Positions 1 to 29,909 of a DNA stretch of 31,668 nt are shown one piece after another. Source of the stretch: a virus. The stretch's first letter is position 1. Each line of letters starts with the position of its first letter. Position numbers and translations under genes: made by a program. Below the pieces are notes generated by a model. That model saw only the letters and a list, made by a program, of their open reading frames with translations, was not told the DNA's origin and made no database searches. Location: the IMG/VR virus record IMGVR_UViG_3300032307_000772, positions 1 through 31,668 of that record. The stretch is one strand, 5' to 3'.

Positions 1-247
1 ACTTGACTAAAGCCATTTGTGCATCAACAATCTTGTTAAAAGCATTTGTTCTAAAAACATTTGCTTCCCAACTTTGCATTATCTTTCCATAATCGCTTTT
101 CTCTAACTCGGCTTGTTGTAATAAATCTAAAGCATCAGCCATTAATTTTTTGGCTTGATTTACTTTATCATCGCCTGACGGATTAAATGTTAATCCTACC
201 GCTTTTTCTCCGAAAGTTAATTCTCTCTGTGTATCGTTTGATTCCAT
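1..247 (-). CDS. Partial small protein resembling the Acb2/Tad1 hairpin family (nucleotide-sponge anti-defence)
   Basis: The start codon is at 245-247 and the frame is open to the window edge, so about 82 N-terminal residues are visible and the C-terminus is missing. The protein starts MESNDTQRELTFGEKAVGL, followed by TFNPSGDDKVNQAKKLMAD, then a long helical stretch ending in a 'KIVDAQMALVK' segment. The 'FGEKAVGLTFNPSGDDKV' opening and a closing helix of the form 'I-DAQM-xxVK' are what I recall from small phage proteins now grouped with Acb2/Tad1, which bind cyclic di- or trinucleotides or gcADPR made by CBASS and Thoeris. This is recall, not an alignment. The gene carries the start-associated repeat shared with the Tad2-like gene at 1270-1551, which strengthens the context. 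If the family call is wrong it is an unknown early protein. Confidence 0.5.
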   Translation of the reverse strand, partial: MESNDTQRELTFGEKAVGLTFNPSGDDKVNQAKKLMADALDLLQQAELEKSDYGKIMQSWEANVFRTNAFNKIVDAQMALVK

Positions 248-283
248 AATATTTTTAGCACTTTACCTTGCAATCGGGTTCTA
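245..283 (-). repeat. Start-associated repeat, copy 1
   Basis: On the minus strand this begins at AGAACCCGATTGCAAGG, continues TAAAGTGCTAAAAATATT and runs into the ATG at 247. It fills the whole gap between the stop of the 281-511 gene and this start. The core GATTGCAAGG is identical in all six copies. Confidence 0.9.
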
Positions 284-511
284 TAATTTCAATTTTTTTT
301 CTGCTTCTAAAGAATTACTTAATTCAAAACATAAATCCGCAAAACTCAACCAATTAAAAGAATCTTGTTCCTTGTTTTTTTCAAAAAGTTCTTTTAATTC
401 TCTTTTAAGTATCAACAAAGCAGATGTAGAAACATTTTTTATGTTTATAGTTATTTCATCTGTACCAAAATTACCTTGTTCATCGGGTTTGTAATCTATT
501 TTAATCTCCAT
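281..511 (-). CDS. Small acidic protein of unknown function in the repeat-leader array
   Basis: This 76-residue protein has an N-terminal beta-rich part (MEIKIDYKPDEQGNFGTDEI then an alternating hydrophobic ITINIKNV strand). A helical, charged C-terminal part follows (ILKRELKELFEKNKEQ and LSNSLEAEKKLKL). I see no known motif, membrane segment or cysteine cluster. It is one unit of the repeat-leader array: a start-associated repeat lies directly before its ATG, and its stop codon overlaps the end of the next copy. The shared leader with Tad2-like and Acb2/Tad1-like genes makes it a guilt-by-association anti-defence candidate, nothing more. Confidence 0.75.
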   Translation of the reverse strand: MEIKIDYKPDEQGNFGTDEITINIKNVSTSALLILKRELKELFEKNKEQDSFNWLSFADLCFELSNSLEAEKKLKL

Positions 512-553
512 ATTATTTATAGTACTTTACCTTGCAATAGGGTTCTTGGTTTA
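509..553 (-). repeat. Start-associated repeat, copy 2
   Basis: This is the minus-strand leader of the 281-511 gene, reading CCAAGAACCCTATTGCAAGG then TAAAGTACTATAAATAATATG. It is the most divergent copy (CCCTATT for CCCGATT, GTAC for GTGC). Its upstream end abuts the stop codon of the 554-730 gene. Confidence 0.88.
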
Positions 554-730
554 TTATCTTTTACTCTGTTTGGTTATTGCTAATAAATAACCACTTATCC
601 ACATTTGTTTTTCTGTTGGAGATAGTGTTTCTCTTAACTTTTCGTGTACATTTTCTTCAAATGCTTTTTCTCCTAACATCATAAAATCAGCAGGATTTGG
701 CAATTCGTTTGGTTTTAAATTTTCTTCCAT
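554..730 (-). CDS. 58-residue protein of unknown function in the repeat-leader array
   Basis: The ATG is at 728-730 and the TAA at 554-556. The protein starts MEENLKPNELPNPADFMMLG, continues with a charged helical middle (EKAFEENVHEKLRETLSPTE), and ends in KQMWISGYLLAITKQSKR. The C-terminal 20 residues could form an amphipathic or short membrane-associated helix, but it is too brief and too charged for a confident transmembrane call. Its own copy of the start-associated repeat precedes the ATG. No family recognised. The compact fit between two repeat copies supports it being a real gene despite its size. Confidence 0.75.
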   Translation of the reverse strand: MEENLKPNELPNPADFMMLGEKAFEENVHEKLRETLSPTEKQMWISGYLLAITKQSKR

Positions 731-778
731 AATAATTTTAGCACTTTACCTTGCAATCGGTTTCTTGGTTTATTAATA
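728..778 (-). repeat. Start-associated repeat, copy 3
   Basis: This is the leader of the 554-730 gene. It reads CCAAGAAACCGATTGCAAGG then TAAAGTGCTAAAATTATTATG on the minus strand and occupies the whole intergenic space after the 781-987 stop. Confidence 0.9.
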
Positions 779-780
779 AT

Positions 781-987
781 TTAGTTTGAACTTGGCTCTG
801 AAATACCGCAAGTTCCAAAATTCCCTTTTTCTTGTTCATTCCAATTATCAGGTGTTTCTTTCCGAAAAACAAGTTTTAAATGGTATTTAATTGTCTGAAC
901 TTGATTTTCATCAAGTTCTTTTAATTCAGATTTTTTTGATAATTCAAAAAATCCTTGTAGCCAATAGCAAAAATCTAATGAGTTCAT
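781..987 (-). CDS. Conserved small phage protein ('FCYWLQGFFEL' type), unknown function
   Basis: This is a 68-residue protein. The N-terminal MNSLDFCYWLQGFFELS, followed by a Q-rich helix (LDENQVQTIKYHLKLVFRK), matches a short domain I have seen repeatedly in phage early regions: DFCYWLQG, a ...EL segment, then ...Q...IK.HL..VF.K. I know of no assigned function. The C-terminus is a polar tail with a GNFGT sequence. The gene has a near-consensus start-associated repeat, so it belongs to the same array as the Tad2-like gene. A nucleotide- or protein-binding inhibitor is possible but not shown. Confidence 0.8.
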   Translation of the reverse strand: MNSLDFCYWLQGFFELSKKSELKELDENQVQTIKYHLKLVFRKETPDNWNEQEKGNFGTCGISEPSSN

Positions 988-1029
988 AATATTTGTAGCA
1001 CTTTACCTTGCAATCGGGTTCTTGGTTTA
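985..1029 (-). repeat. Start-associated repeat, copy 4
   Basis: This is the leader of the 781-987 gene and the cleanest consensus copy. On the minus strand it is CCAAGAACCCGATTGCAAGG then TAAAGTGCTACAAATATTATG. It ends one base from the stop codon of the 1031-1255 gene. Confidence 0.92.
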
Positions 1030-1030
1030 A

Positions 1031-1255
1031 TTATGCAATTCTATAACCTGTATAGTCGCACTTTTCACTTGAGCAACCAACATTCTTTTTTGGTGGCATT
1101 GATGTTAATGTAACGTTAGGTTGTGTGTCAAGCAATTCTTCTCCGCATTTCGGACAAGCAATACCGTTTGGAACAGGTTTCTGATTCATCATTCCCCAAT
1201 GGAAAGTAGAAGACACAGAGTTGTGTTCATCTAAACTTTTTAGTCTTTTAGCCAT
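1031..1255 (-). CDS. Zinc-ribbon small protein
   Basis: This is a 74-residue protein. Four cysteines form two knuckles: CPKCGEE (about residues 34-40) and CSSEKCDYTGY (about residues 61-71). This is a zinc-ribbon arrangement, typically a nucleic-acid or protein interaction fold. The N-terminal third is polar and lacks cysteines. It sits inside the small-gene array but has no start-associated repeat, which separates it from its neighbours at 781-987 and 1270-1551. Target and function are unknown. Confidence 0.75.
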   Translation of the reverse strand: MAKRLKSLDEHNSVSSTFHWGMMNQKPVPNGIACPKCGEELLDTQPNVTLTSMPPKKNVGCSSEKCDYTGYRIA

Positions 1256-1269
1256 ATCAATTTATTTTG

Positions 1270-1551
1270 TTATTCGACAACAAACCAATCCTCCGCTAAA
1301 CAATCTGAAGTACTTGGATTCCAAGTCGCTATATCATTTTGAGCCGTCTTTAAAGCCAAATAAGGTCTGTATGGAACTAACTTGTCCCCGAATTCCTTTT
1401 TTGCAATTTCAGTACTTGCGGGGTATGAATTAGCAGGAACATAATATGCATACATTCCACTTCCATTCCATCCTTTTCTTGATACTTTTTTACCGTCTTT
1501 AAGTAGTCTTATAGCCAAGCCAAAATCAAATAAATTTACTTCTGAATTCAT
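1270..1551 (-). CDS. tad2: DUF2829 protein, Tad2-type anti-Thoeris nucleotide sponge
   Basis: This 93-residue protein spans the DUF2829 fold end to end: an N-terminal helix 'FDFGLAIRLLKDGKKVSRKG', then WNGSGMYAYYV, a loop, 'PYLALKTAQNDIATWNPSTS' and a terminal 'AEDWFVVE'. The K(V)xRKGWNGxGM motif and the closing W-x-P-S...D...A-D-W pattern are diagnostic. Phage DUF2829 proteins of this size (Tad2) oligomerise and sequester gcADPR-type signals made by Thoeris TIR enzymes, acting in the host cytoplasm. Not every DUF2829 protein has been shown to do so. The gene has a start-associated repeat with the GGATAAG variant, shared only with the copy at 29.87 kb. Family is confident; the anti-Thoeris role is inferred from the family. 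Confidence 0.85.
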   Translation of the reverse strand: MNSEVNLFDFGLAIRLLKDGKKVSRKGWNGSGMYAYYVPANSYPASTEIAKKEFGDKLVPYRPYLALKTAQNDIATWNPSTSDCLAEDWFVVE

Positions 1552-1593
1552 AATATTTGTAGCACTTATCCTTGCAATCGGGTTCTTGGTTTT
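1549..1593 (-). repeat. Start-associated repeat, copy 5 (GGATAAG variant)
   Basis: This is the leader of the Tad2-like gene: CCAAGAACCCGATTGCAAGG then ATAAGTGCTACAAATATTATG on the minus strand. The AT swap relative to copies 1-4 is shared with copy 6, so these two copies are the closest relatives. Confidence 0.92.
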
Positions 1594-1601
1594 TTTTAAT
1601 T

Positions 1602-2225
1602 TTAAATTTCTTTTTTAATTTCGTAATAAAAACTATCTCCGTCTTCAGTAATCCATCTGTCGGCTTGATTTTCTACTGAAATTAATTCAGTATCAACTTT
1701 AAATTGTTTTAAATCTTGAGGAAGTTTTTTAGTTACCCAATTACTATCCCTCCAAAATATTCTATTGTTTGGTTGACAAAGTAAAAATCCGTCATCAGCA
1801 AAAAATATGTGTCCGCATTTATAATCAGAGGGTTCATCTGAATAAGGGTTATTAAACCAATCGACCGTGAACATATATGTAGCCCATATTTTTTTACCAT
1901 CTCTTAAAACTATTTCGGCTCTATGATATGCTAAAAAATCATATTCAACTACTGACACGTTTTCTGAAAAGCAATCCCACAATTGTTTATAATGTGCGGG
2001 AATGTCATTTTCAGGAATCGAAGTATAAATTTCAGATATTGGGACTCTACTTCTAACCATACCATCATCTGTCATAATGTGAAACGTTAATATTACACCT
2101 GCAACAGACTGAATTGCAAAACAATAAACATTTATAAATTCATCACTATCTTTAACGTTTTTGGTTAAATATGATTTTCTTACTAAACCTTTAAAACTTG
2201 GTATATTACTATTTAATTTACTCAT
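1602..2225 (-). CDS. Hypothetical protein, 207 residues
   Basis: Mixed alpha/beta soluble protein with no signal peptide or membrane helix. It is rich in aromatic residues (for example WATYMFTVDWFNNPYSDEPS near residues 119-138, and NRIFWRDSNWV further on). The two halves alternate strand-forming segments, as in phage structural accessory or inhibitor proteins, but I recognise no family. It lies between the small-gene array and the glycan cassette, only 5 nt downstream of the GT4 stop, so it is probably cotranscribed with the glycan genes. It lacks the start-associated repeat. Confidence 0.7.
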   Translation of the reverse strand: MSKLNSNIPSFKGLVRKSYLTKNVKDSDEFINVYCFAIQSVAGVILTFHIMTDDGMVRSRVPISEIYTSIPENDIPAHYKQLWDCFSENVSVVEYDFLAYHRAEIVLRDGKKIWATYMFTVDWFNNPYSDEPSDYKCGHIFFADDGFLLCQPNNRIFWRDSNWVTKKLPQDLKQFKVDTELISVENQADRWITEDGDSFYYEIKKEI

Positions 2226-2230
2226 AAAAT

Positions 2231-4798
2231 TTATTTTGCAAGTTTATCTATTTTTACTTTGAATTGTTTTGCTATTTTTTCCCAACTCATACCTTTTACT
2301 TTTTCATAAGCCCTTTCGATTTTTTCGGCAACCATAAGTTGTAATTCTTCTTCATCATTAATCAAGTTGTAAGCAACCCCTAATAAAGTATTTACTTCAC
2401 TTGGATTACAAGAATATCTGATTTTCTCAAAGTCATTCACATAAACGGTAGGTTGCATAAACATAAAGTTTAGTGTTAAATCGCCGTCATTTGTAATTTC
2501 AGTTAGTGAAGTATGTTTTGGACAAATAACCAACGTTTTTGTAGCCATTGCCTCTGTTACTGTATTATGACAAACTAAACCATTACCAACAAAACTATGA
2601 GTTTCTTCAACACATAAATCATATACTTCAGTTTTGTTATATATTTCTGAAATTGTTTTTATTTTTACAAAAAAATGCGTATCATTTTCTATAACATTAG
2701 AATTATGATTTCTTGTATTATTTCTTTTTAAATCAAATTCATAATTTACTAAATCCATATATTTTTGAATATAATGATTTGTTATTGAACACTGATAAAA
2801 ATTAAAATTACCAATGTTCCTTTTGTTAAATTTGTGAGAAGAAACAAAAACTCCATTTGAGTTCAAAATAGATTGAATTTGAAAGGCTAAAGAAGGAGAT
2901 ACTGTTGTAAAAGAAATATGGTTTCTATCAAACCTTAAATGACCATCTCCCTCAATATATCCTTTAACCAAAGGCATTAATTTTTTTTCAGAACCAATTA
3001 AAAAACAAGGCACTTTTTTATTCAAACTACCTTGTCCACAGGTTTTTTTAAAAAATTGAGCAATTATAGTATTAGAAACTCTTAATGCACATTTTGTTTT
3101 CATTTTTTTTATTACAGAATCTTTAAATCCAAAAACATCTTCAATTATTGATTTAATTTTTTCCGCTATGTGTAATTCATCTATATTTAAAGAAAACTCA
3201 ACTCTCTTTCCATCTTCGTTACTTCCCTCTGCTAAATACCAACCAATTAGATATAAAAAGTCGTCATTTATTTTTAAATTTCTTTTTATTTTAACAGGTT
3301 TTGATTTATAATATCCATCAAATTTAAGTTTTTCACATAAATCTAAAACTTTTTTAGATTTTTTTAGTGTTCCATTTTTTAAGTTTTGTATAGCCGATTC
3401 TGAAATGTTTTTTGAAACTCCGTATTTTTTTGAAATTTCAGAAATTGACCATTCTTTACTTTTAGGGCTATATGAAAATTTATTAGACAAAAAATCTTCT
3501 TCTATTATATTATTTTTATTGTCTAAATCTATGTAATCAATCAAATCTAAAGAATTTATTAGTTCTTTATCTCCTTTTGGCTTTACAATTCCTAAATAAT
3601 CGCCTTTTTTTATATCCTTTATTCTTTTAAATTCTCCTTTATTTTCACGTTTAGAATAAACAAAGTAAGGGTGTTCAACAGTAGCACTAACGTTAAAACC
3701 ATATTCAGTTTTAACGTTTACTAATTTATCCACGCTTCTAAAAGTAGTGTCTAAAACTTTATGATATTTACCACTATTACCTAAAACCATATCTCCTACT
3801 AAAACATCTTTAATGTTTTTGACTCCATTTATAGTTGGTATTTTAGTAAAAGGCTCAAGGCACAAGCCCCAACCCTCTGCCGTAGTAGTTGTGATAAAAC
3901 AATTAAAAGCATTGTAAATTCTATTTAACTGAACGTTATCACAACCTTTGTTTTCTGAAAAATCTTTTGGGAAAATGACATCTAATCCAACTCTTAACCC
4001 TACTCTTTCGCAAAGACGGTACATATTGATACCTGACGGGTCTAAAGGATTACAATGAAGATACAACACGGCTTTTACTTGATTATGATGCTTAAATGTA
4101 GCAAATCCCAATATCAAACTCGCTAAATCTTTTCTCGCAGAATTTCTATTTACGCTACCAAATAAATAAGTTTCAGCATCTCCTGCTTCGCCCAAAATCT
4201 CTAATTTTGCTTCAAGTTTCTCTTCGTTAGTTAAAGGATAAAAATCATTTGTATTACAACCGTGAGGAATAACTCTAATTTTTTTAGCATTTGTTGGCGT
4301 AGTTAGAGGTTTCATTACGTTTTTAGCGTATTCAGTATAAGTTATAACTTCATCGAAAAAACTTAATATATTCAAATCAACAGGTCTTGGCTCGCTATCA
4401 ATAGGAAAATAAACCATAGTTTTGAAAGACTTTTTGTTCTCTTTTCTTTTTTCCTTTTTAACGTTTAATAAATGCTCTCCCATTTCATTGAAAATTTCAA
4501 TGTCATTTAAGCAAAAAACAATGTCAAAATCGTTTTGATAAATAGTTTTTAGAAACTCTATTCTGCAATAAACGTCTTTTTTGCTTTCGGATAAAGTCAT
4601 AGCAGGTAATACCTTTACGTTTTCTTTATAGTCGTAAGGGGCTTCTGCAAAGTTGTTAATTGCAAAAACAACTATTCTTAAATTTTTGTCTTTTGACCAA
4701 TGGTCAATAAGTTCTTTTGATACGTTTCCGAATCCTGTCGTACAACCAAAATCCCCGAAGAATAATAGGTTGGTAATTTTTTCTGTTTTTTTTGCCAT
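2231..4798 (-). CDS. GT4-family glycosyltransferase precursor containing a LAGLIDADG intein
   Basis: This is an 855-residue precursor. Residues 1-312 plus 746-855 form a GT-B (GT4/GT1-like) glycosyltransferase of about 422 residues. It has an N-terminal Rossmann part (LLFFGDFGCTTGFGNVSKEL), a linker with VIPHGCNTNDF near 176-186, a YLFGSVNRNSARKDL segment near 211-225, and the C-terminal EX7E motif. That motif is E308-GWGL then, after the intein, TVT-E749, the nucleotide-sugar-binding element. The intein occupies residues 313-745. The mature enzyme should transfer a sugar from an NDP-sugar to an unknown acceptor in the cytoplasm. It is the most downstream enzyme of the glycan cassette and starts 5 nt after the RyR-domain gene. 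Confidence 0.92.
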   Translation of the reverse strand: MAKKTEKITNLLFFGDFGCTTGFGNVSKELIDHWSKDKNLRIVVFAINNFAEAPYDYKENVKVLPAMTLSESKKDVYCRIEFLKTIYQNDFDIVFCLNDIEIFNEMGEHLLNVKKEKRKENKKSFKTMVYFPIDSEPRPVDLNILSFFDEVITYTEYAKNVMKPLTTPTNAKKIRVIPHGCNTNDFYPLTNEEKLEAKLEILGEAGDAETYLFGSVNRNSARKDLASLILGFATFKHHNQVKAVLYLHCNPLDPSGINMYRLCERVGLRVGLDVIFPKDFSENKGCDNVQLNRIYNAFNCFITTTTAEGWGLCLEPFTKIPTINGVKNIKDVLVGDMVLGNSGKYHKVLDTTFRSVDKLVNVKTEYGFNVSATVEHPYFVYSKRENKGEFKRIKDIKKGDYLGIVKPKGDKELINSLDLIDYIDLDNKNNIIEEDFLSNKFSYSPKSKEWSISEISKKYGVSKNISESAIQNLKNGTLKKSKKVLDLCEKLKFDGYYKSKPVKIKRNLKINDDFLYLIGWYLAEGSNEDGKRVEFSLNIDELHIAEKIKSIIEDVFGFKDSVIKKMKTKCALRVSNTIIAQFFKKTCGQGSLNKKVPCFLIGSEKKLMPLVKGYIEGDGHLRFDRNHISFTTVSPSLAFQIQSILNSNGVFVSSHKFNKRNIGNFNFYQCSITNHYIQKYMDLVNYEFDLKRNNTRNHNSNVIENDTHFFVKIKTISEIYNKTEVYDLCVEETHSFVGNGLVCHNTVTEAMATKTLVICPKHTSLTEITNDGDLTLNFMFMQPTVYVNDFEKIRYSCNPSEVNTLLGVAYNLINDEEELQLMVAEKIERAYEKVKGMSWEKIAKQFKVKIDKLAK
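2564..3862 (-). mobile_element. Intein with LAGLIDADG homing endonuclease and a helix-turn-helix insert
   Basis: Encodes residues 313-745 (433 aa) of the glycosyltransferase precursor. It begins with Cys313 (CLEPFTKIPTINGVKNIKDV, block A) and has a block B with TVEHPYFV near 373-380. It ends with the splice block YDLCVEETHSFVGNGLVCHN, terminal His744-Asn745, followed by Thr746 as the +1 nucleophile. All canonical splicing residues are present, so it should self-splice. A helix-turn-helix-like segment (about 450-490) precedes two LAGLIDADG-type helices: LIGWYLAEGS (517-526) and LVKGYIEGDGH (610-620). Both carry the acidic residue, so the endonuclease looks intact. The insertion point lies inside the catalytic EX7E motif. 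Confidence 0.92.
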
Positions 4799-4803
4799 CT
4801 TCT

Positions 4804-5205
4804 TTATTTTAAAGAATTTAATGTTAATGTATTTCCTGCTGATAATGAATCAACAATAGCACAAAATAGTGCGTCTTTTTTCTTTTGAAAGTCGGGTAGT
4901 TTGTCAAAAGGAATGATGCAAGGGTGTGTCTTGGCTACCGCATCTTTAACCTCTCCATAAACCCAACCATCTTTTACTTTTTCTTCCAACCAAGCGTTGT
5001 GTTGAGCATCGTGTCCTGCGTTTGGATTTAATAATCTAAACTCTACTCCTTTAATTGCACTTTCACGTTGCCAATCTTCCGCATCTTGCCAATCTTTTTG
5101 AGAATTATCATCATTTGCTTCACACCACGCTTTATTTGCTTGATGACATACTAAAGCAATTTGTAATACCTCTAAAGAGGGTTTTGATTTAATTGTTTCT
5201 TTCAT
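4804..5205 (-). CDS. RyR-domain protein
   Basis: This is a 133-residue protein. From about residue 14 to 122 it matches the prokaryotic/phage RyR (ryanodine-receptor repeat) domain: HQANKAWCEANDD (21-33), DWQDAEDWQRESAIKGVEFR (38-57), HDAQHNAWLEEKVKDGW (65-81), VYGEVKDAVAKTHPCIIPFD (82-101) and the closing FQKKKDALFCAIVDSL. Bacterial and phage RyR domains have been proposed to recognise nucleotide-derived signals, but the ligand is not established. It overlaps the upstream gene by 17 nt and lies between the nucleotide-sponge array and the glycan genes. A signal-binding role in counter-defence is inference. Confidence 0.88.
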   Translation of the reverse strand: MKETIKSKPSLEVLQIALVCHQANKAWCEANDDNSQKDWQDAEDWQRESAIKGVEFRLLNPNAGHDAQHNAWLEEKVKDGWVYGEVKDAVAKTHPCIIPFDKLPDFQKKKDALFCAIVDSLSAGNTLTLNSLK

Positions 5206-6779: not shown

Positions 6780-7487
6780 TTAATAGTTTTCTTTTTCGTG
6801 AACACAAGTTACCTCTCTTATGACATAACTTTTTAAATTTTCTTTTTTACATTTTTCTGCAATTCTGTCCCACATATCCCCGTCACTTGGAAAATATCTG
6901 TTTTCTTCAGCCCATAAATCCCGATACGGCAAATGTATCTGTTCTAAATCATAATAAACAGAACTATGGATTAAAGAGCAATATGCAGGATAATATTCCA
7001 CTACTTGTCCGTCAGTAGGCATTTGAGGAAATACAGGATTGTCTAAATATCTGCTCAATGTGTATATGAACGCAGGGTTTTGTTTTTCTATTATTGTTTT
7101 AGCAATTAACTCTAAATGATTTGGCAACCAAATATCATCGTGGTCTATGTGACACACTTTTGTTATTCCGTGAGCCTTTGCTAAATTATTAGCGTGATTA
7201 AGTGCGTTCGCACCACCGCAATTCCAAAGAGCAGTATTGTTAATACCCAAATACTTATCTCTTTCGTGAGCAAAACTTAAATTTTCAAATACTATTTTAT
7301 CTTTAATTTCAATAAAGCCATTAATAATATCTTCAAATTCTTGATTATCCTCATACTTATCCCCAACTATAAATATCTTAAAATTTTGGTACGACTGATT
7401 TGCTACGCTTTGAATCGTTTTTAAAAGCAAGTTCGGGGTTTGTCCGTCCGCTCTTTGATATGTGTGTATTGTAACTCCTAACATCAT
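6780..7487 (-). CDS. GT2-type glycosyltransferase
   Basis: This 235-residue GT-A fold enzyme begins with the strand MMLGVTIHTYQRADGQTPNL typical of GT2 (xVTxxTYxR). It continues with LLKTIQSVANQSYQNFKIFI and carries the metal/nucleotide-binding DHDD at 115-118 (CHIDHDDIWLPNHL). It lacks membrane helices, so it should be a soluble transferase using a UDP- or GDP-sugar. Its ATG overlaps the stop of the methyltransferase gene by one base, so the two are co-translated. The donor and acceptor cannot be read from sequence. Confidence 0.88.
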   Translation of the reverse strand: MMLGVTIHTYQRADGQTPNLLLKTIQSVANQSYQNFKIFIVGDKYEDNQEFEDIINGFIEIKDKIVFENLSFAHERDKYLGINNTALWNCGGANALNHANNLAKAHGITKVCHIDHDDIWLPNHLELIAKTIIEKQNPAFIYTLSRYLDNPVFPQMPTDGQVVEYYPAYCSLIHSSVYYDLEQIHLPYRDLWAEENRYFPSDGDMWDRIAEKCKKENLKSYVIREVTCVHEKENY

Positions 7488-8131
7488 TATTTTATTTTTT
7501 TAATAACAAAACAATTTCCCTCTTTAAGTTCGCTTGGGTATGCGCCCAATTTATTTTCTAATGTACCAATGATTTCGTAATTTGAAAGGCTCGGCACTAA
7601 ACCATCGACTGCGCTTTTAACTTCAGGGCTAAACTCTTTATCGTTGTAATCATCAAAGACAATGTAACCCCCAACATTTACTAATTCTTCGTACATTGAA
7701 AAATCATTAAAAACCCCATCAAAACTATGGTCGCCGTCAATAAACAATATGTCTATTTTATTAGTATAGCCCAATACTCTTGAATTGCTTAATGTTTCGA
7801 TAACCTTGTCTTTTGTCGTTTGAGATTGAGAGTTTCCCTCAATAAATTTATAATAATTATTATTACTTTTATAATTAATTACATTCTCAAAAACAACCGC
7901 TTTAGGAATCGGTACTCCCAAGTCAATACTTATAATTGTTGTGTCGGGTCTTTGCATCATTAAGCAAGAACTACCACCTGCATAAGCACCAATTTCAACG
8001 TAATTAATCTTCTTGTCGCCAAAGGTATTTGCGATGTCATAAAGAATATGATAATGATGGTGGAACGTGGCTACTTCAGTAGCAATCTGCCTAACCATAT
8101 CTAACGAAAGTTGTGTAATTTTTAAGTCCAT
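7487..8131 (-). CDS. SAM-dependent methyltransferase (CmcI/Methyltransf_24-like)
   Basis: This is a 214-residue class I Rossmann methyltransferase. Motif I is VEIGAYAGGSS (45-55) and the acidic ribose-binding strand is ISIDLG (67-72). Then come ILFIDGDHSFDGVFNDF (about 127-143) and GGYIVFDDYN (about 153-162). The DGDHS...DD pattern is that of the metal-assisted CmcI/Methyltransf_24/sugar-O-methyltransferase group. Its place between a GT2 gene and acetyltransferase/aminotransferase genes suggests it methylates a sugar or glycan made by this cassette. Confidence 0.85.
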   Translation of the reverse strand: MDLKITQLSLDMVRQIATEVATFHHHYHILYDIANTFGDKKINYVEIGAYAGGSSCLMMQRPDTTIISIDLGVPIPKAVVFENVINYKSNNNYYKFIEGNSQSQTTKDKVIETLSNSRVLGYTNKIDILFIDGDHSFDGVFNDFSMYEELVNVGGYIVFDDYNDKEFSPEVKSAVDGLVPSLSNYEIIGTLENKLGAYPSELKEGNCFVIKKIK

Positions 8132-8134
8132 ATT

Positions 8135-8638
8135 TTATTTTTTTAAATCGTTTTTTGTTTTCTGTTTGTGACAACTATCACAAAGGTATTGATAATTAGA
8201 CAACCAACAACCGCCCCCGCCTTTAAATACAGGTACAACGTGGTCTTTATGAACTGAATTTACAGACATACCATTAGCATATTCTTTGTATGAATCAGTT
8301 AGTCCACATTCAATACAAGCAACTACCCCGTGATATAATTTTAGATAACTTGATATTGTTTCAGAATGACCATTTATAATAGCCCAAACTGCCTGTGCAA
8401 AATACTTGCAACTATCCGTAGCCCAACGTCTTCTTCTTCCTGTTACTTCAGCACCACAACCGCAACCGCATATATTTCCGTTTATAGGAAACATTTCTCC
8501 TATCGGAACACTTTGTATTCTTGCAAAATGATTAACTTTAATTCTGTCATAGATAGGTTTAGGGTCGAGAAATAAAACCCTCAACTGATAGTCTTTACAA
8601 GGTCTTACTTCTTTATGACTTAATTGCTCAACAACCAT
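8135..8638 (-). CDS. HNH endonuclease with an additional zinc-binding N-terminal module
   Basis: This is a 167-residue protein. The N-terminal part has CGCGCGAEVTGRRRRWATDS (57-76) and C77, a treble-clef-like zinc module. The C-terminal HNH domain runs from C108/C111 through VHKDHVVPVF (129-138, catalytic His133), GCWLSNYQYLC (Asn148) and CDSCHKQKTKND (153-164). The active site looks intact. It lies between the methyltransferase and acetyltransferase genes with 3 nt gaps, unrelated to glycan synthesis, so it is probably a free-standing homing or restriction-like nuclease that moved in. Confidence 0.85.
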   Translation of the reverse strand: MVVEQLSHKEVRPCKDYQLRVLFLDPKPIYDRIKVNHFARIQSVPIGEMFPINGNICGCGCGAEVTGRRRRWATDSCKYFAQAVWAIINGHSETISSYLKLYHGVVACIECGLTDSYKEYANGMSVNSVHKDHVVPVFKGGGGCWLSNYQYLCDSCHKQKTKNDLKK

Positions 8639-8641
8639 AAT

Positions 8642-9277
8642 TTACTTTATCTTTTTAGCAGGAATACCAACGTATGTACCGCTTTCTGTTATGTCTTTTA
8701 CAACACTTGCATTCATACCAATTACAGCATCATCGCAAATGTTTATTTTTTCTCTGATACAACAAGCAGTTCCTAAATAAACACCTTTTCCAATATTAAC
8801 GTTTCCACTAATATTTACGCTCGGAGCAGTAGTTACAAAATCCCCTAAAACAGAATCGTGTCCTATTGTTGTTTGTAAGTTAAGATGAACGTGGTTTCCT
8901 ATTTTTACATCGGTAGTTATGATAACTCCTGCACAGATGAAATTTCCTTTTCCTAAAGACAAATTATTTACATAGGCGTTTGGAGAAATGTAATTCCAAA
9001 ATTTCGTATTTTCAGGTAATTTAGACAATAATTTCATTTTGTCTGCGGGATTTCCTACTGCTATTAATGCACTTTGAGTTTTTGGATTAAATTCAGAAAT
9101 CTTGTATAGACCATCAGTCCAATATTCATCATCTACAAAACATTTTAAATTAAACTTATTTTGAAGATAAACTTCTGCAACTATTTCTCTTGCAAAACCA
9201 CCCGCACCAATTAAAACAGGTTCTAATTGTCTGTTTAATATGTTTTCTTGTTGTTTTTCAGTTTCTTGATTTTCCAT
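8642..9277 (-). CDS. PglD/NeuD-family sugar O/N-acetyltransferase
   Basis: This 211-residue protein has a Rossmann-like N-terminal domain with the family signature GAGGFAREI (24-32) and FVDDEYW (47-53). Then comes a left-handed beta-helix of hexapeptide repeats (about 97-205), including TTIGHDSVLGDF (136-147), where His140 aligns with the catalytic base of PglD. It ends VGIPAKKIK, the usual trimer-forming tail. The family transfers acetyl from acetyl-CoA to a sugar amine or hydroxyl, commonly a UDP-4-amino-sugar or sialic acid. The DegT-like gene nearby (10332-11012) would be the natural amino-donor step, which favours N-acetylation of an amino sugar. Confidence 0.9.
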   Translation of the reverse strand: MENQETEKQQENILNRQLEPVLIGAGGFAREIVAEVYLQNKFNLKCFVDDEYWTDGLYKISEFNPKTQSALIAVGNPADKMKLLSKLPENTKFWNYISPNAYVNNLSLGKGNFICAGVIITTDVKIGNHVHLNLQTTIGHDSVLGDFVTTAPSVNISGNVNIGKGVYLGTACCIREKINICDDAVIGMNASVVKDITESGTYVGIPAKKIK

Positions 9278-9287
9278 TTTTTTAATT

Positions 9288-10013
9288 TTAAAAGTTATTT
9301 TTTAATATGTCATATCCTGAATGATGTTCTTTAAACCAAATTTTGTCAAAAACCTGTTTTTTAAATTCAAAATAAGGGTTTCCATCGTAATACAAATCCC
9401 AAGTTAAATGATATACCTTGTTTCTATTCACTTTAAACCAACTTCTATTCATTGCATTTACAGTTTCGGCAAGAAAACTATCAAGATATAATTTGTTTTG
9501 CTTTAAAAGATTTATGTCTTCGTGTTTTATTGTAATGAAGAAGTTTCCTGTATGACCTTGTACACTTCCGAATAACGCTAAATTACACTTGCTTTCATTT
9601 ATAAATCTTTCTAAACCAAACCTTTGTTTGTTAAGGTAATTATTGCCCTGCCATAATTCAGCACTACTAATAATTACTTCAGGGTTTTTAAAAGCATCAA
9701 ATATTTCGTCAAACATTGCTTTTACATCGTGTACATATAAATCGCCATCAGTAAACGTAACGTATTCATATTGCTCAATTAAATCCCAATAATCACAAAT
9801 AAAAATACTCATTGCGCTATTGGCTATGTTCTCGTGAAATTGAATATAACCAATATGATTTTTGTCTTCAAAATAGTCAGCAATAGCCTTTGAATTTATT
9901 GATTGATTTTCAACTATAAATATATCAGCATCTACACCCTGTATGCTTTCAAAACTTTTGCTTACAATATCCAAATGCTCAAAAGCCATAAAGACAATCA
10001 AATGCTTTTTCAT
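9288..10013 (-). CDS. GT-A glycosyltransferase-like protein
   Basis: I use the ATG at 10011-10013 (MKKHLIVFMAFEHLDIVSKS). It sits one base after the stop of the upstream gene; the alternative ATG at 10040 would overlap that gene by 26 nt. The protein (241 residues) has the GT-A order: N-terminal strand, DADIFIVENQS, QFHENIANSAMSIFICDYWD, then YVTFTDGDLYVHD with a D-G-D metal site near residues 86-90, and a C-terminal aromatic-rich region (FKVNRNKVYHLTWDLYYDGN). No membrane helix. Sugar specificity unknown. Confidence 0.75.
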   Translation of the reverse strand: MKKHLIVFMAFEHLDIVSKSFESIQGVDADIFIVENQSINSKAIADYFEDKNHIGYIQFHENIANSAMSIFICDYWDLIEQYEYVTFTDGDLYVHDVKAMFDEIFDAFKNPEVIISSAELWQGNNYLNKQRFGLERFINESKCNLALFGSVQGHTGNFFITIKHEDINLLKQNKLYLDSFLAETVNAMNRSWFKVNRNKVYHLTWDLYYDGNPYFEFKKQVFDKIWFKEHHSGYDILKNNF

Positions 10014-10014
10014 A

Positions 10015-10332
10015 TTAACCTGTACTTTCAATAGAATCAATTGCTTTTTTGGTTATCTTCAATGGAGTTGAGAAAGATTTACTTCTCGCTCTATGTGTGT
10101 AAACAAAAAAACCATCTTTATCTGCCCCCATAGAAACTCCGCTTATTTTTGATGATATTTTAAACATTGCTGACGGTTTTACCAAACCAAATACACGACC
10201 ATTATTATATCTACTTGAAGAAGTAACATAGTTTAGTATTTCCTCTTTCATTTTAGCAGGTATTTTTCTACTCAACTGAATAGATTTTCTTACGTCAGGT
10301 GTTTTTTTACTTAATTCTGATTTTGCTTTCAT
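10015..10332 (-). CDS. Small basic hypothetical protein in the glycan cassette
   Basis: Start chosen at 10330-10332 (MKAKSELSKKTPDVRKSIQL): its ATG overlaps the TAA of the DegT-like gene by one base, as is common here, whereas the ATG at 10341 would overlap by 10 nt. The 105-residue protein is lysine- and serine-rich with a basic N-terminal half. I see no domain. It lies between a glycosyltransferase and the DegT-like gene and is probably cotranscribed with them. Confidence 0.65.
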   Translation of the reverse strand: MKAKSELSKKTPDVRKSIQLSRKIPAKMKEEILNYVTSSSRYNNGRVFGLVKPSAMFKISSKISGVSMGADKDGFFVYTHRARSKSFSTPLKITKKAIDSIESTG

Positions 10333-11012
10333 TATTTCCAAATTTTAAACTTACTCAAATCAGGATAAGGCAATTCCAAATCCTCGTTATGCTTTTTACT
10401 TCCGTCAGCATTATAAAATTGATTCATCAATAGAAGACCTCTCGCAGACAATTCAGGCATCATATAGAAGTTCCAACCAATAACAGGATTATCATCAAAA
10501 TCGTCTTCGTGATAACTGCATTCACTTCTTCCGCTAAAACGTGCTTTTTTCAGCCAATTGTAGGCATCTAAATCGTCTAATAGTATTGCACCGCCTTTTG
10601 ATAACTTAAAGTGCTTGTACGCCCCTGTGAAAGAAACACACATCATTGATTCGGGAATATACATATCAGCAGTAAATCTTAATGCGCTATCCCAAACGTT
10701 AGTTGGTGTTAATTGATATGCCCCTTTTATTGTATTTCCAACTACCTTTGTGAAATTTACCTCTGCCCCTGCGTGAATTACTTCGCAAGGAACTGACGGA
10801 TATGTTCTTTGAGGAACGTCAATTAATGGTGGTTGATAAGTTCCATCCAACCAATCTATATGTGCTTCTTTATTTTTAACGTGAATCCAATAATACAAAC
10901 ACAAAAACAATGCGTTGCTTTGGTTATCTACACACACAACGTAAGGTGCGCCCGTATATTTTGATAGTTCTGCCTCAAAATCGGCAGTAATTTTGTGTAC
11001 TCCCTGTGCCAT
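10332..11012 (-). CDS. Shortened DegT/DnrJ/EryC1-family sugar aminotransferase-like protein
   Basis: 226 residues, against about 360-400 for the family. The PLP-binding large domain is recognisable: KITADFEAELSKYTGAPYVV, NQSNALFL (replacing the usual SGTxAL), IDVPQRTYPSVPCEVIHAGA, WDSALRF (Asp108 in the place of the PLP-ring aspartate), SFTGAYKHFKLSKGGA with Lys133 aligned to the Schiff-base lysine, and IGWNFYMMPELSARGLLLMN. It then stops where the C-terminal small domain should begin. It may be a minimal aminotransferase making a 4-amino sugar, or an enzyme with altered chemistry. Cofactor residues look kept, so loss of function is not evident. Confidence 0.8.
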   Translation of the reverse strand: MAQGVHKITADFEAELSKYTGAPYVVCVDNQSNALFLCLYYWIHVKNKEAHIDWLDGTYQPPLIDVPQRTYPSVPCEVIHAGAEVNFTKVVGNTIKGAYQLTPTNVWDSALRFTADMYIPESMMCVSFTGAYKHFKLSKGGAILLDDLDAYNWLKKARFSGRSECSYHEDDFDDNPVIGWNFYMMPELSARGLLLMNQFYNADGSKKHNEDLELPYPDLSKFKIWK

Positions 11013-11027
11013 ATTATTTGAATTAAT

Positions 11028-11402
11028 TTATAGTTTAAAAACGAAGTGATTTTCTAATTTATTATATTGACCTTTGTGTTTTTCTTTTAAATATTCGGTT
11101 AGCGCAATTAATAATTCGTTAGTAAGATAATAACCATCTTTAATTTTAACTACCAAAACAACACCCTCTCTCCATTCACTCCAAGCAGAACTTCTTCCGT
11201 CACCGCCTAAAATATATTCATATTTTTTTTCTTCAAAATCCGCAGTATAATATTTTTTATTTGGTAGATTAGCGTAAAAGTCATCGGTTGTAGGTTGTGT
11301 CATTTTTGATAAATTTTGAAGTTCTTCTTCATAAAAATCTACCCAACCCTGTGCTTCTTTTTTCCTGTTAATGTAGTTTTCAATTTTTTCTTGTAAATCC
11401 AT
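11028..11402 (-). CDS. Hypothetical protein with N-terminal coiled-coil
   Basis: 124-residue soluble protein. Residues 1-33 are a charged helix likely to form a coiled coil (MDLQEKIENYINRKKEAQGW and DFYEEELQNL), followed by a beta-rich middle (YYTADFEEKKYEYILGGDGR, VVLVVKIKDGYYL) and a helical end. No motif for glycan chemistry is visible. It is embedded between the RgpF-like and DegT-like genes with gaps of 1 and 15 nt, so it may be an accessory subunit or a passenger. Confidence 0.65.
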   Translation of the reverse strand: MDLQEKIENYINRKKEAQGWVDFYEEELQNLSKMTQPTTDDFYANLPNKKYYTADFEEKKYEYILGGDGRSSAWSEWREGVVLVVKIKDGYYLTNELLIALTEYLKEKHKGQYNKLENHFVFKL

Positions 11403-11403
11403 T

Positions 11404-12111
11404 TTATGCTTTTAAAATGTAACCCCCTTTTACTTTTATTAAACAACCAAATACTCTTTCTAAATGATGTGCAATTGAGCCGTCCCCAATATATCCGTCT
11501 TCAAATTTATGATAAAATCTTTCATAAATATTTTCAGCAATAAACCAATCCATTATGGTTTTAAAATTTACCATAAACATAGTTCCACCTACAAACTCAT
11601 AATCAGTAAAGTTAATAGGTTCAGAAAAATACTGTTGTTCATACCCAATTACGTCTTGTTTTAAAACCCAAATAGCACTCCCGACCATTTTAGCATCTGT
11701 ATCTCTACAAGCCAAATATCCGTTTTGTAATTTAGGAAAACCTAACAAGGCATCTGTTAATTGGCTTCTCCAACGCTCCCCAAGTTCGTAACTGTGAGCC
11801 AAACTTTTTTTGCTATGAAGTTTAATCATAACATCATAATTTTTTCCCCTTGAAAAAATATCATTCATAACATACAGAAAAGGAGCAACGTCCATTCCTC
11901 TATTTGGCAATGAATAAATAAATGCTTCGGGAAACTCCGACATAACTGCATCGTGAATATCTGTAAATTGACCTGAATGACCGTCTGTTATCGTAACGTA
12001 AAGGTCAATGTCTGTGTCAATTCTTTTTAAGTAGGGTAAAAAGTAGCCCCATAAATCAACATAATAGAGGTGTAGTATAACACACACTTTTTTGTGAAAA
12101 TGTTCTTCCAT
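11404..12111 (-). CDS. RgpF-like (rhamnan synthesis protein F family) glycosyltransferase
   Basis: 235 residues. Typical RgpF-family blocks are visible: CVILHLYYVDLWGYFLPYLK near the N-terminus, DLYVTITDG, LPNRGMDVAPFLYVMN (the NxGxDxxPFL signature), then YDVMIKLHSKKS (the 'KxHTKK' block), and WRSQLTDALLG. The C-terminal VGGTMFMVNFKTIMDWF corresponds to the 'xAGTMFW.R' segment. RgpF proteins act on rhamnose-containing polysaccharide, usually as glycosyltransferases on the cytoplasmic side. The phage version is a single compact domain. Confidence 0.88.
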   Translation of the reverse strand: MEEHFHKKVCVILHLYYVDLWGYFLPYLKRIDTDIDLYVTITDGHSGQFTDIHDAVMSEFPEAFIYSLPNRGMDVAPFLYVMNDIFSRGKNYDVMIKLHSKKSLAHSYELGERWRSQLTDALLGFPKLQNGYLACRDTDAKMVGSAIWVLKQDVIGYEQQYFSEPINFTDYEFVGGTMFMVNFKTIMDWFIAENIYERFYHKFEDGYIGDGSIAHHLERVFGCLIKVKGGYILKA

Positions 12112-12140
12112 AGTGTTTTATTTTTGTTGTTAATTTTTAA

Positions 12141-12845
12141 TTATCTGCAAAAATTAAAAACCTGATTAACGTATTTTCTAAAACCTACATATTTAATCAA
12201 ATTGTAATACATTTTGCAATCTTTATAAATTCCTTTCAAAAAACTATTTTTTTTGAATTTATAATTATTTACGGCTGAACTTGGCGACCAACCACATTTG
12301 TTTTCTAATTTTTTTTCAATAAAATATTGATTTATGGCAATTTCTAACTGAAACCCTTTAACACCCGTTGCTAAAATCTTACTTAATTGATTTTTATTTA
12401 TTATCCTTTCCCCCGAAAACAAAGTATTTGACCTGAAAATTTTTACCAAAGGCAAAGATTTTGTACGTTTAAGAATAACCATTTCCAAAGATTCTTCTTT
12501 GAATTTTTTAATAGCACTTTTAAATTCTGAAACTCTTACATCTTCCAAGTCCGAATCAACTAATAAAATGTTTTTATTATAGGCTTTATTTAAAGCATAA
12601 GAAACCGCAGAGGATTTTCCAATATTAGAATTTATTCTTATTATATTAACGGGGTATCTGTGTTTGAATGTACGAACCATACCATTAAATACCTTTTTAC
12701 TTTTAGAACCATCATCAACAAGAATTATTTGATTAATTTCAGGTATAGCCAATAGAGAAAAAACAATTATTCTCAATGTCCATTCTTCTTCATTATAAAA
12801 AGGAATTATACAAGTTACGTTATCTTGATTCAAAACGCTATTCAT
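12141..12845 (-). CDS. GT2 glycosyltransferase
   Basis: 234 residues with clear GT2 blocks: VTCIIPFYNEEEWTLR (10-25), IILVDDGSKSKK (40-51), INSNIGKSSAVSYALN (75-90) and NILLVDSDLEDVR (93-105), the DxD-like donor site being DSD. There is no C-terminal membrane segment. Its donor motif resembles dolichyl-phosphate-mannose-synthase-like GT2 enzymes, but the acceptor is unknown. It is separated from the next upstream glycosyltransferase gene by 2 nt. Confidence 0.88.
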   Translation of the reverse strand: MNSVLNQDNVTCIIPFYNEEEWTLRIIVFSLLAIPEINQIILVDDGSKSKKVFNGMVRTFKHRYPVNIIRINSNIGKSSAVSYALNKAYNKNILLVDSDLEDVRVSEFKSAIKKFKEESLEMVILKRTKSLPLVKIFRSNTLFSGERIINKNQLSKILATGVKGFQLEIAINQYFIEKKLENKCGWSPSSAVNNYKFKKNSFLKGIYKDCKMYYNLIKYVGFRKYVNQVFNFCR

Positions 12846-12847
12846 TT

Positions 12848-13471
12848 TTATTGATTAAACGGGGTAGCAAATGTTTCTTGAGTTGGTTGTCCGCCCCATT
12901 TAGAAATATAGTATTGACGATTTTTTTCAAATCCACTATTTAATTCAGGAGATTTTTGAATTGTCATACTGTTTCTGTAAATTACAGGATTAAGCATAGG
13001 GTTTACTATTATTGGCACATTTGCCAACTGCATACGTCTGAAGTAGTCGTTATCCTCGAAGTAAGCAGGAAAGAAATTTTCATCAAAATTACCTACTTTT
13101 TTAAAAGTTTCAACAGATAAAATAAAACTACACCAATTGAGTTCAGTACAAATAAATTCAGGATTCCATAATCGAATTATTGTATTTATTTCATCTTCAG
13201 ATTTTCCTAAATAAATGTCATCATTTAAAATAAGAACGTGCGTTCCTTTTACCTTGTCTGCATAATCCATTAACATATTCCAACTTCCCGATACTCCTAA
13301 ATTTTTTTCGGGCTTATAGTGAACAAAATTTCTTTCTCTTGTAATTATTTCTTGATTTCCATTATCACAAATTACGATTTCTGTGTTTTTAAAATCTTCA
13401 AAATAATTAGCCAACGCTTCATTTAAAAGGTCGGCTCTGTTGATTGTTGGGATTCCGATAATAAGTTTCAT
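12848..13471 (-). CDS. GT2-type glycosyltransferase
   Basis: 207 residues. GT-A features: MKLIIGIPTINRADLLNEAL (1-20), IVICDNGNQE, NLGVSGSWNMLMDYA (the NxGxxGxxN block), THVLILNDDIYLG with the NDD donor motif near residues 81-83, and VGNFDENFFPAYFEDNDYFR with the ED-D acid/base region. It is compact and membrane-free. It is the first gene of the glycan cassette in transcription order and lies 14 nt downstream of the 50-residue membrane-protein gene. Confidence 0.88.
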   Translation of the reverse strand: MKLIIGIPTINRADLLNEALANYFEDFKNTEIVICDNGNQEIITRERNFVHYKPEKNLGVSGSWNMLMDYADKVKGTHVLILNDDIYLGKSEDEINTIIRLWNPEFICTELNWCSFILSVETFKKVGNFDENFFPAYFEDNDYFRRMQLANVPIIVNPMLNPVIYRNSMTIQKSPELNSGFEKNRQYYISKWGGQPTQETFATPFNQ

Positions 13472-15116: not shown

Positions 15117-15665
15117 TTATAAATATTTGTTTGATATTTTATTTTCCGATTCAAAAATACATCTTTTTAAATATGCTTCCTCTTCGGAATCATAAAACCC
15201 AAGATGTATCTTTCTGCCATTAAATTGAATTTGACTTCTCCATTTATTAGTTTTTATAACAAAACTAACTCCAATATAATTACTTGTTTTTTTTAATAAG
15301 GTTTGTTTATGACACTCGTTTTCTCTACTTGAAACCCACTCAAGGTTTTCTAAATTATTGCATTTTTTATCTCCGTTAATATGATTTACTTGCTTACTAA
15401 AGTCGTCTGTAAACAAAAAAGACTTTGCGACTAATCTGTGTACTAAAAAACAACTCAAAACACCATTTTTACATATAGTAGTTTGTTCATAACCATTATT
15501 GTTAAATTTAGTAGAGAGTATTTTTTCAGGATATTCTCTTATTGTCTTAAAATTTTTTCCTGTAAATCTTTTTTTAGCCAAACTTTTAACCCTGCCTAAA
15601 TTTGAAATTTGATATAAATTTTCATATCCAATAATGTCTTTCCAAACCTCTATATTTAAACCCAT
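15117..15665 (-). CDS. Homing endonuclease, NUMOD4-HNH-AP2
   Basis: 182 residues in three modules. NUMOD4 is at 6-50 (EVWKDIIGYENLYQISNLGR then VKSL). The HNH domain is about 73-119, with LVHRLVAKSF, VNHINGDKKCNNLENLEWVS (93-112) and NECH. The C-terminal AP2-type DNA-binding domain is about 128-172 (SNYIGVSFVIKTNKWRSQIQ then GRKIHLGFYDSEEEA). All catalytic residues appear present, so it is probably active. It stands between the DUF3127 gene and a second OB-like gene with gaps of about 22 and 1 nt. Confidence 0.93.
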   Translation of the reverse strand: MGLNIEVWKDIIGYENLYQISNLGRVKSLAKKRFTGKNFKTIREYPEKILSTKFNNNGYEQTTICKNGVLSCFLVHRLVAKSFLFTDDFSKQVNHINGDKKCNNLENLEWVSSRENECHKQTLLKKTSNYIGVSFVIKTNKWRSQIQFNGRKIHLGFYDSEEEAYLKRCIFESENKISNKYL

Positions 15666-17965: not shown

Positions 17966-18466
17966 TTATTTTTTAGTGATTAATTTATAATTAACTACTT
18001 CCACTTTTTTTCCAAGTTCATTGTGCAAAAAGATTTTTTCAGTTTTAAAAACAAAACCGTCTTTTCTCAAAAACCAAATGAAATTATGTAAACTTTTTAC
18101 TTTAAATTTTTGTTCACAGGTAAGAACGTCAAGCGAACCATAGGCTATTAAGTATTCTTTAATTTCATTCAAAGTTTTTTGACCTACAATGTTTTTCTTT
18201 CTCTTCTTTTTTGGTTTATTTTCGGAACTTAAAAAATCTTTATCTGTATTTATTTCCTTTTGAATTATTTCATTAGAAACAAAAAAATCATCTCCGCTCG
18301 GCATAGAACTATCAATTTTTATTGGATTAAAAAAATCATCTCCTTTTGGTATTGGACAATTTTCTTTTTCTTGGTCTTCAAAATTTTCAATTATTCCGCC
18401 TTGAGCGAATTTATCTTTTGATTGGCTACCAAAAAAAAGATTCCAAATGAATTTAAAAATTTTCAT
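17966..18466 (-). CDS. Hypothetical protein with repeated 'GDDFF' motif
   Basis: 166 residues. A short hydrophobic N-terminus (MKIFKFIWNLFFGSQS) precedes an acidic, probably disordered linker with two near-repeats, PIPKGDDFFNP (about 38-48) and SMPSGDDFFVS (about 54-64). A basic patch KPKKKRKKN follows. The C-terminal 70 residues (VGQKTLNEIKEYLIAYGSLD onwards) look like a winged-helix DNA-binding domain. The doubled motif could be a peptide dock for a partner. Function unknown. Confidence 0.65.
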   Translation of the reverse strand: MKIFKFIWNLFFGSQSKDKFAQGGIIENFEDQEKENCPIPKGDDFFNPIKIDSSMPSGDDFFVSNEIIQKEINTDKDFLSSENKPKKKRKKNIVGQKTLNEIKEYLIAYGSLDVLTCEQKFKVKSLHNFIWFLRKDGFVFKTEKIFLHNELGKKVEVVNYKLITKK

Positions 18467-29722: not shown

Positions 29723-29875
29723 TTAAATTAAAAAAATCGCTCCAATTATTATTATTAAAAATAAAATAATAAGTAATAATATCCGATAAAATTTTGACAC
29801 TTCATCGTCCGTCCCGTAAAAATTAAATAAAATTAAATTCTTAAATTTTTCATCATCTTTACTATCCCTAAACAT
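29723..29875 (-). CDS. 50-residue membrane protein with the left-end start-associated repeat
   Basis: ATG at 29873-29875, TAA at 29723-29725: MFRDSKDDEKFKNLILFNFY, then GTDDEVSKFYR, then a single hydrophobic helix (LLLIILFLIIIIGAIFLI). N-terminal acidic, probably cytoplasmic part and one C-terminal anchor. It is the only gene outside the left-end array with the same leader repeat, which ties it to the putative anti-defence units 28 kb away. No family recognised. Confidence 0.7.
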   Translation of the reverse strand: MFRDSKDDEKFKNLILFNFYGTDDEVSKFYRILLLIILFLIIIIGAIFLI

Positions 29876-29909
29876 AATATTTGTAGCACTTATCCTTGCA
29901 ATCGGGGTT
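29873..29909 (-). repeat. Start-associated repeat, copy 6 (GGATAAG variant)
   Basis: Minus strand: CCCCGATTGCAAGGATAAGT then GCTACAAATATTATG. From CCCGATT to the ATG it matches copy 5; the CCAAGA upstream part is lost. Confidence 0.9.

Follow-up and report, generated by a model that had tools for sequence, protein, structure and literature searches.

The IMG/VR virus record IMGVR_UViG_3300032307_000772 was analysed over its whole length of 31,668 bases (here called the window). It is AT-rich, its genome is of the flavobacteriophage type, and near one end it holds a cassette array of small open reading frames (ORFs), most of which are preceded by an almost invariant leader of about 33 nt that ends at the start codon. 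On balance, the leader appears to be a start-associated element that serves the initiation of translation of small, abundant phage proteins, and it lies in an array of exchangeable cassettes. The virus is uncultured and its host group is probably flavobacteria. Nearly all plausible genes of the window are on the minus strand. Other contigs are referred to by L numbers.

Conservation and position of the leader

The leader can be written as ANNCCGATTGCAAGG-WW-AAGTGCTA-N-AAATATT-ATG. A scan of the window with the 20-base core, allowing at most three mismatches, gave six copies, all on the minus strand, five in the array and one at 29876-29908, compared with none expected by chance (100 shuffles). 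The copies precede the ORFs beginning at 247, 511, 730, 987, 1551 and 29875, and the same scan found none before the zinc-ribbon ORF (1255) or the ORF beginning at 2225. The initial annotation had described the leader as common to a Tad2 gene (1270-1551, 93 amino acids) and a gene truncated by the contig edge (1-247, 82 codons). These coordinates are correct, and the two leaders differ at only 3 of their first 38 bases; the number of copies had, however, been underestimated, as four more ORFs carry the leader.

An exact scan of IMG/VR gave 69 stretches with the leader, and about 20 more came from two relaxed scans; negative position weight matrix (PWM) scores mark some of these as chance matches. 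Although the first scan set no ATG requirement, the distance from the core to the ATG was 8 nt at 80 of 83 distinct sites and 9 nt at the other three. The conserved element spans -33 to -1. Bases that the search pattern did not specify are conserved too: A-33 and CC-30/-29 at all 78 sites compared, A-6 at 77 and A-3 at 74. Releasing positions in the relaxed scans left T-13 and the CC pair unchanged, whereas -14 varied; the conservation thus does not stem from the way the sites were searched for. Leaders scored 40-64 bits with the PWM, the range of 10-30 bits was empty in leader-bearing loci, and 527 kb of other phages contained no site above 8 bits. Genes without a leader on leader-bearing contigs have the ordinary A-rich pattern at -11 to -13 and match at most 10 of the 20 core bases, whereas the leader has TGC, within AAGTGCTA, where ordinary genes carry that motif. 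The leader usually fills a short gap between co-directional genes and lies within 60 nt of the stop codon of the upstream gene at 71 of the 72 sites where such a gene could be assigned.

The contigs that carry the leader are very different from each other and range from 4 to 309 kb. The usual number of copies is one to four, with six in the window and in L007. At the sensitivity used, the leader was absent from 50,697 catalogued phage records, which gave only half-length chance matches. Four matches were obtained in one-per-species genomes, three of them in Flavobacteriaceae, on two contigs of isolate PS02334 and one of F. caseinilyticum, in surroundings that are phage-like by eye. In F. caseinilyticum AT-3-2 a single leader lies in a prophage-like region (locus L159). 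The fourth, in a proteobacterial metagenome-assembled genome and without the usual spacing, is probably a chance match. In L011/L048/L071 (L160:110-240) an intact leader is followed by no ORF and then by a terminator-like hairpin. A partly similar sequence, TATAGGTAAA, lies upstream of leaderless Acb2 and RyR genes in two instances only (L046 4300-4374 and L251 2960-3000, respectively) and is possibly a diverged leader. A second, degenerate leader class before these two genes was considered and rejected, as it was not reproduced in 2.0 Mb of DNA.

Genes behind the leader

Tad2 is leader-led in the window and in L033. The leader-led proteins of the Acb2 hairpin type comprise at least seven divergent types: those of L012, L020, L035, L044 and L068 match PF24729, and the window type and the L056/L196 type were counted by family relation. 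In 27 leader-bearing records all four PF24729 genes stood directly behind a leader, and Acb2 family clusters made up 4 of 33 led clusters compared with 0 of 639 non-led ones (p=4.9e-6). As the records were sampled because they bear the leader, this association holds within leader-bearing records, not for all phages. Other phages frequently have Tad2 and Acb2 genes without the leader; of the leaderless Acb2 relatives, those of L079/L080 are the closest.

Other genes are led as well, among them HU (3 contigs) and an SSB-like protein ending in DDNLPF (9 contigs; SSB-like by eye), together with about 30 families that could not be assigned. The leader is therefore not an anti-defence tag as such. 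The description of the array as a counter-immunity locus in the initial annotation agrees with the Tad2 and Acb2 identities and was too strong in view of this broader cargo.

Tad2, Acb2 and RyR genes of the window

The ORF 1270-1551 is Tad2-like by sequence comparison, as the initial annotation had proposed. It matches PF11195 (DUF2829) with E=2.8e-24 and 85.9 bits (cut-off 25) over positions 2-73 of the 73 in the profile. The likeness to Tad2 (ModTad2, SPO1 Tad2) is whole-length; the window gene differs in carrying the leader. The closest solved structure is ModTad2 (9eib, E=6.5e-34; 8v3e, E=7.5e-34). Structures of AcrIIA7 belong to the same family, so that an anti-CRISPR of the AcrIIA7 type could be considered in place of a signal sponge, but they follow far behind (8kbi, E=3.1e-11; 9kzr, E=9.2e-11). 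Signal sequestration also fits the neighbouring Acb2 and RyR genes and the RyR-Tad2 fusion described below, and an anti-CRISPR role is hardly to be expected.

The ORF 1-247 is cut by the contig edge. Since its close relatives have 86-88 amino acids, only about 4-6 residues are missing. Assignment to the Acb2/Tad1-hairpin family is supported through these relatives. Of 154 relatives found in viral contigs 80 were kept, and tblastn and an iterated hidden Markov model search joined them with the window protein in one family. One member matches PF24729 (Acb2_Tad1_hairpin) with E=1.9e-12 and 47.6 bits (cut-off 27), identity to several members above the PF24729 cut-off is 41-46%, and the family profile A1 finds T4 Vs.4 (7uq2) with E=0.0011. 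The AlphaFold2 model (pLDDT 83.6) has a short N-terminal helix and two long ones (residues 12-17, 27-49 and 60-81), in common with the hairpin family, and the C-terminal motif QM--VK--T is a further likeness. The window protein differs in lying below Pfam detection and in its N-terminal LTFGEKxVGxxFNPSG, which is typical of its subfamily. The Acb2/Tad1-like identity claimed in the initial annotation is thus supported by way of the relatives and not by a direct match.

A third candidate counter-signal gene, which the initial annotation had missed, is the ORF 4804-5205, which encodes a RyR-domain protein of the RyDEP type. It matches PF02026 with E=2.4e-11 and 44.1 bits (cut-off 27.4), and its H69, W72, H94 and D111 have the same spacing as the ligand or catalytic residues H75, W78, H100 and D117 of RyDEP. 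Proteins of the RyDEP family degrade or sequester 2'/3'cADPR, and most of the homologues tested are sponges, not enzymes (PMC13232231). RyDEP has been reported within a NARP1 operon, whereas the RyR gene of the window is near Tad2 and Acb2. The order RyR gene, glycosyltransferase gene, zinc-ribbon gene, array and Acb2 gene is repeated in L084, L085 and L087. Fusions also occur: L213 encodes, on its minus strand, a leader-led RyR-Acb2 hairpin fusion of 215 amino acids, and L247 a RyR-Tad2 fusion (3007-3666, plus strand), about 1.1 kb upstream of which lies a PF24729 gene. In L251 the RyR gene adjoins a Tad2-like gene. Neither partner is mentioned in the text of the RyDEP preprint (PMC13232231). 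With tblastn, matches in 12 phage records covered at least 80% of the RyR-Tad2 fusion; the records listed are from Pseudomonas phages. The matching stretch in Pseudomonas phages (e.g. MK511043 42642-43199) is annotated as alanyl-tRNA synthetase.

Exchange of cassettes

Four relatives differ from the window in the composition of the array. In L084 and L087 the order is zinc-ribbon gene, leader, Acb2; in L085 it is zinc-ribbon gene, leader, MEIKID gene, leader, Acb2; and in L082 it is MNSLDF gene, leader, Acb2. In each of them the segments homologous to the window overlap by 38-47 bp, and this overlap is the leader. Homology thus switches inside the leader, from which it follows that units of leader and ORF have been exchanged, as the initial annotation had suggested.

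In L084, L085 and L087 the array is flanked on one side by a glycosyltransferase-like gene and on the other by large genes in which LLAPNGKPSNL motifs are repeated. Downstream of Acb2 these contigs encode large or repeated proteins (LLAPNGKPSNL...FKKWFGDWE...VYHG) that by eye resemble polyvalent phage proteins. In L083 (about 4960-5000) a degenerate leader precedes an Acb2 gene whose start is broken, the start codon being followed immediately by a stop; the gene appears as one with a natural pseudogene start.

Possible function of the leader

The fixed distance to the ATG with a varying spacer, the tight co-directional gene runs and the conserved A-3 and A-6 together indicate translation initiation. 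In F. johnsoniae, A-3 and A-6 are known to favour initiation (PMC6847099). The leader may therefore act on the mRNA, taking the role of the A-rich motif that Bacteroidota have at -11 to -14, and a trans-acting factor would perhaps read it. Small proteins that function through stoichiometric binding would thereby be strongly expressed; the effect of sponge proteins depends on their concentration (PMC12043709). We infer that a strong start signal is the common denominator of the sponges, HU and the SSB-like proteins, all of which are needed in bulk. Homology suggests that Tad2 and the RyR protein remove Thoeris signals of the ADP-ribose type by sequestration or destruction, and that cyclic oligonucleotides are sequestered by the Acb2-type protein. 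The repeated leader may at the same time supply short homologies for the gain, loss and swap of units.

Several observations weigh against a translation-initiation element in a counter-immunity array. The complementarity of the leader to 16S rRNA, taken from a congener of F. caseinilyticum, was 7 Watson-Crick bases and not beyond shuffles (mean 7.0), and no stable hairpin was found in the leader RNA, the minimum free energy being -1.5 to -4.8 kcal/mol with a fold that differs from variant to variant; neither would explain recognition of the core by the ribosome. Most of the led families have no known counter-immunity role, and the Tad2 genes of L007/L086 are leaderless, stand at the place of the window ORF beginning at 2225 and show the homology switch at the start codon. 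As to the Acb2-type ORF, neither it nor its full-length 91% identical relative matched PF24729, and the ORF gave no convincing direct match in Pfam or PHROG and none in PADLOC. A Foldseek search with its model, a small helical monomer with a cut C-terminus, gave nothing at E <= 0.001. Phage bS21 was considered as the trans-acting factor and discarded, as just one of the 27 records contains it. A pairing with the 3' end of 16S rRNA, somewhat above the shuffle mean, was likewise rejected since it involves a base that varies among leaders.

The leader could instead be a promoter for an RNA polymerase that the phage encodes or modifies; the 5' untranslated region would then be very short or absent, and hence the distance to the start codon fixed. 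A long and nearly invariant motif at a fixed distance would also suit leaderless transcripts, and TGCTANAA within the leader resembles an extended -10 element. A promoter element of this kind at this position would, however, place the transcript start at or inside the ATG. Flavobacterial promoters follow the consensus TTG/TAnnTTTG, a pattern that the leader does not have. The proximity of nearly all assignable sites to the upstream stop codon, with no spare room at many of them, and the two conserved adenines, which indicate ribosomes, also make a promoter rather unlikely. A somewhat smaller chance is given to an operator or RNA-binding site at which a repressor holds the led genes off until a given stage, the fixed distance serving to block ribosomes. 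The core contains an imperfect dyad, TTGCA-N8-TGCTA, which together with the high specificity and the few copies (1-6) in most records would agree with such a site. The dyad is invariant, so that covariation cannot be judged, no candidate regulator was identified, and a repressor site seems unlikely.

It is also conceivable that the leader is mainly a recombination site, integron-like or site-specific, for the exchange of cassettes and has no role in expression. Homology does switch exactly in leaders, and in L011 a leader without an ORF has been kept before the terminator-like hairpin. A site that served recombination alone would have no need of a constant 8-9 nt to the ATG, however, and many contigs have a single conserved copy before the same gene, as in the SSB-like family. 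The leader of L083 is degenerate just where the start codon is broken. A site for recombination only is therefore considered quite improbable, and initiation of translation is the reading that we retain.

Relation to known elements

The nearest precedent of the leader is the SAS/ESAS of Cluster K mycobacteriophages, a 13 bp sequence with an AGGAG Shine-Dalgarno (SD) core located 3-7 bp from the start codon in one phage cluster; its function is unproved, and translation initiation is suspected (PMC3203893). Both elements are short, nearly invariant and non-palindromic, lie in one orientation just upstream of the ATG of many unrelated small non-structural genes, and are essentially absent from the host. 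Placement right upstream of start codons in a single orientation was found at all 83 leader sites, with the spacing of 8-9 nt. In contrast, neither the SAS sequence GGGATAGGAGCCC with its SD core nor an SD at the usual distance was found at these sites. The leader would thus work like SAS and is not the Cluster K element. It further differs in its length of about 33 nt, its fixed spacing, its occurrence on very different contigs of SD-less flavobacterial-type phages, its few copies per genome and the marked share of counter-immunity genes among its cargo. The protein families themselves are already known; no report of the leader, of its link to these families or of the RyR fusions was found in the open-access papers searched.

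Other features of the window

The features of the array and its surroundings are collected in Table 1. For three of the five array genes behind a leader no function is known. A phage contig of 167 kb in the L043/L068 comparison has DNA homologous to the MEENLK gene and its downstream leader.

Table 1 Features of the window in and around the leader-led genes
Feature	Position	Strand	Remarks
Acb2/Tad1-hairpin family protein (ORF 1-247)	2..247	-	C-terminus lost at contig edge; relatives match PF24729; profile finds T4 Vs.4; AlphaFold2 helices
Leader of Acb2-type ORF 1-247, positions -33 to -1	248..280	-	Core with 0 mismatches
MEIKID small protein, 76 aa, no assigned function, leader-led	281..511	-	Leader-led homologue in L039
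Leader of ORF 281-511	512..544	-	Core with 2 mismatches; 40.5 bits
MEENLK small protein, 58 aa, no assigned function	554..730	-	Homology comparison with L043/L068
Leader of ORF 554-730	731..763	-	Core scan and PWM score
Small phage protein, 68 aa, phrog_28500, no assigned function	781..987	-	PHROG E=1.5e-11
Leader of ORF 781-987	988..1020	-	Core scan and PWM score
Zinc-ribbon-like protein, 74 aa, without leader	1031..1255	-	Weak zinc-ribbon matches
Tad2-like protein, 93 aa	1270..1551	-	PF11195 E=2.8e-24; ModTad2 9eib/8v3e E=6.5e-34
Leader of Tad2 gene	1552..1584	-	64.3 bits, equal to consensus
phrog_3704 protein, 207 aa, without leader	1602..2225	-	Missing at the corresponding place in several relatives
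Glycosyltransferase-like gene split by intein	2231..4798	-	PF14890, PF14528; conserved, 5' side of array
RyR-domain protein, 133 aa, RyDEP-type counter-Thoeris candidate, without leader	4804..5205	-	PF02026 E=2.4e-11; RyDEP residue spacing kept
Leader-led protein, 50 aa, hydrophobic C-terminal stretch, no assigned function	29723..29875	-	Equal context in L074
Sixth leader copy, overlaps end of ORF 29890-30624	29876..29908	-	Core scan

The intein in the glycosyltransferase-like gene has a LAGLIDADG domain, and the close relatives L084, L085 and L087 have intein-less versions of 421-422 amino acids. A run of glycosyltransferase, acyltransferase and aminotransferase-like genes at 6780-13471 (minus strand), assigned mostly by eye and with a DegT-like match at 10332-11012, is probably concerned with sugar modification. 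Homing-endonuclease-like genes are present at 15117-15665, 21708-22259 and 28600-29352 (minus strand), two of them NUMOD/HNH by eye and one GIY-YIG by Pfam. The motif P-x-[GS]-D-D-[FL]-F recurs among small phage proteins (window 17966-18466, minus strand; L007, L021, L068) and is also found at the N-terminus of one Acb2-type protein.

Significance

The wider proposal, which we put forward tentatively and with less confidence than the role in initiation, is that flavobacterial phages share a sequence-specific initiation signal, read by a phage or host factor, as a portable tag for abundant small counter-immunity proteins, that units of tag and gene are traded, and that anti-defence functions still to be discovered are overrepresented among the unassigned led genes. 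The RyR-Acb2 and RyR-Tad2 fusions tie three families of signal scavengers together, and their domain composition suggests two-headed proteins against ADP-ribose and cyclic-oligonucleotide alarms. If the proposal is true, the leader would offer an easy way, at the DNA level, to look for new phage counter-immunity genes in viromes of Bacteroidota. It would also be a concrete case of a strong initiation signal that does not depend on the SD, in a phylum where ribosomes disregard the SD, and the repeated start region would show how phages shuffle their small genes.

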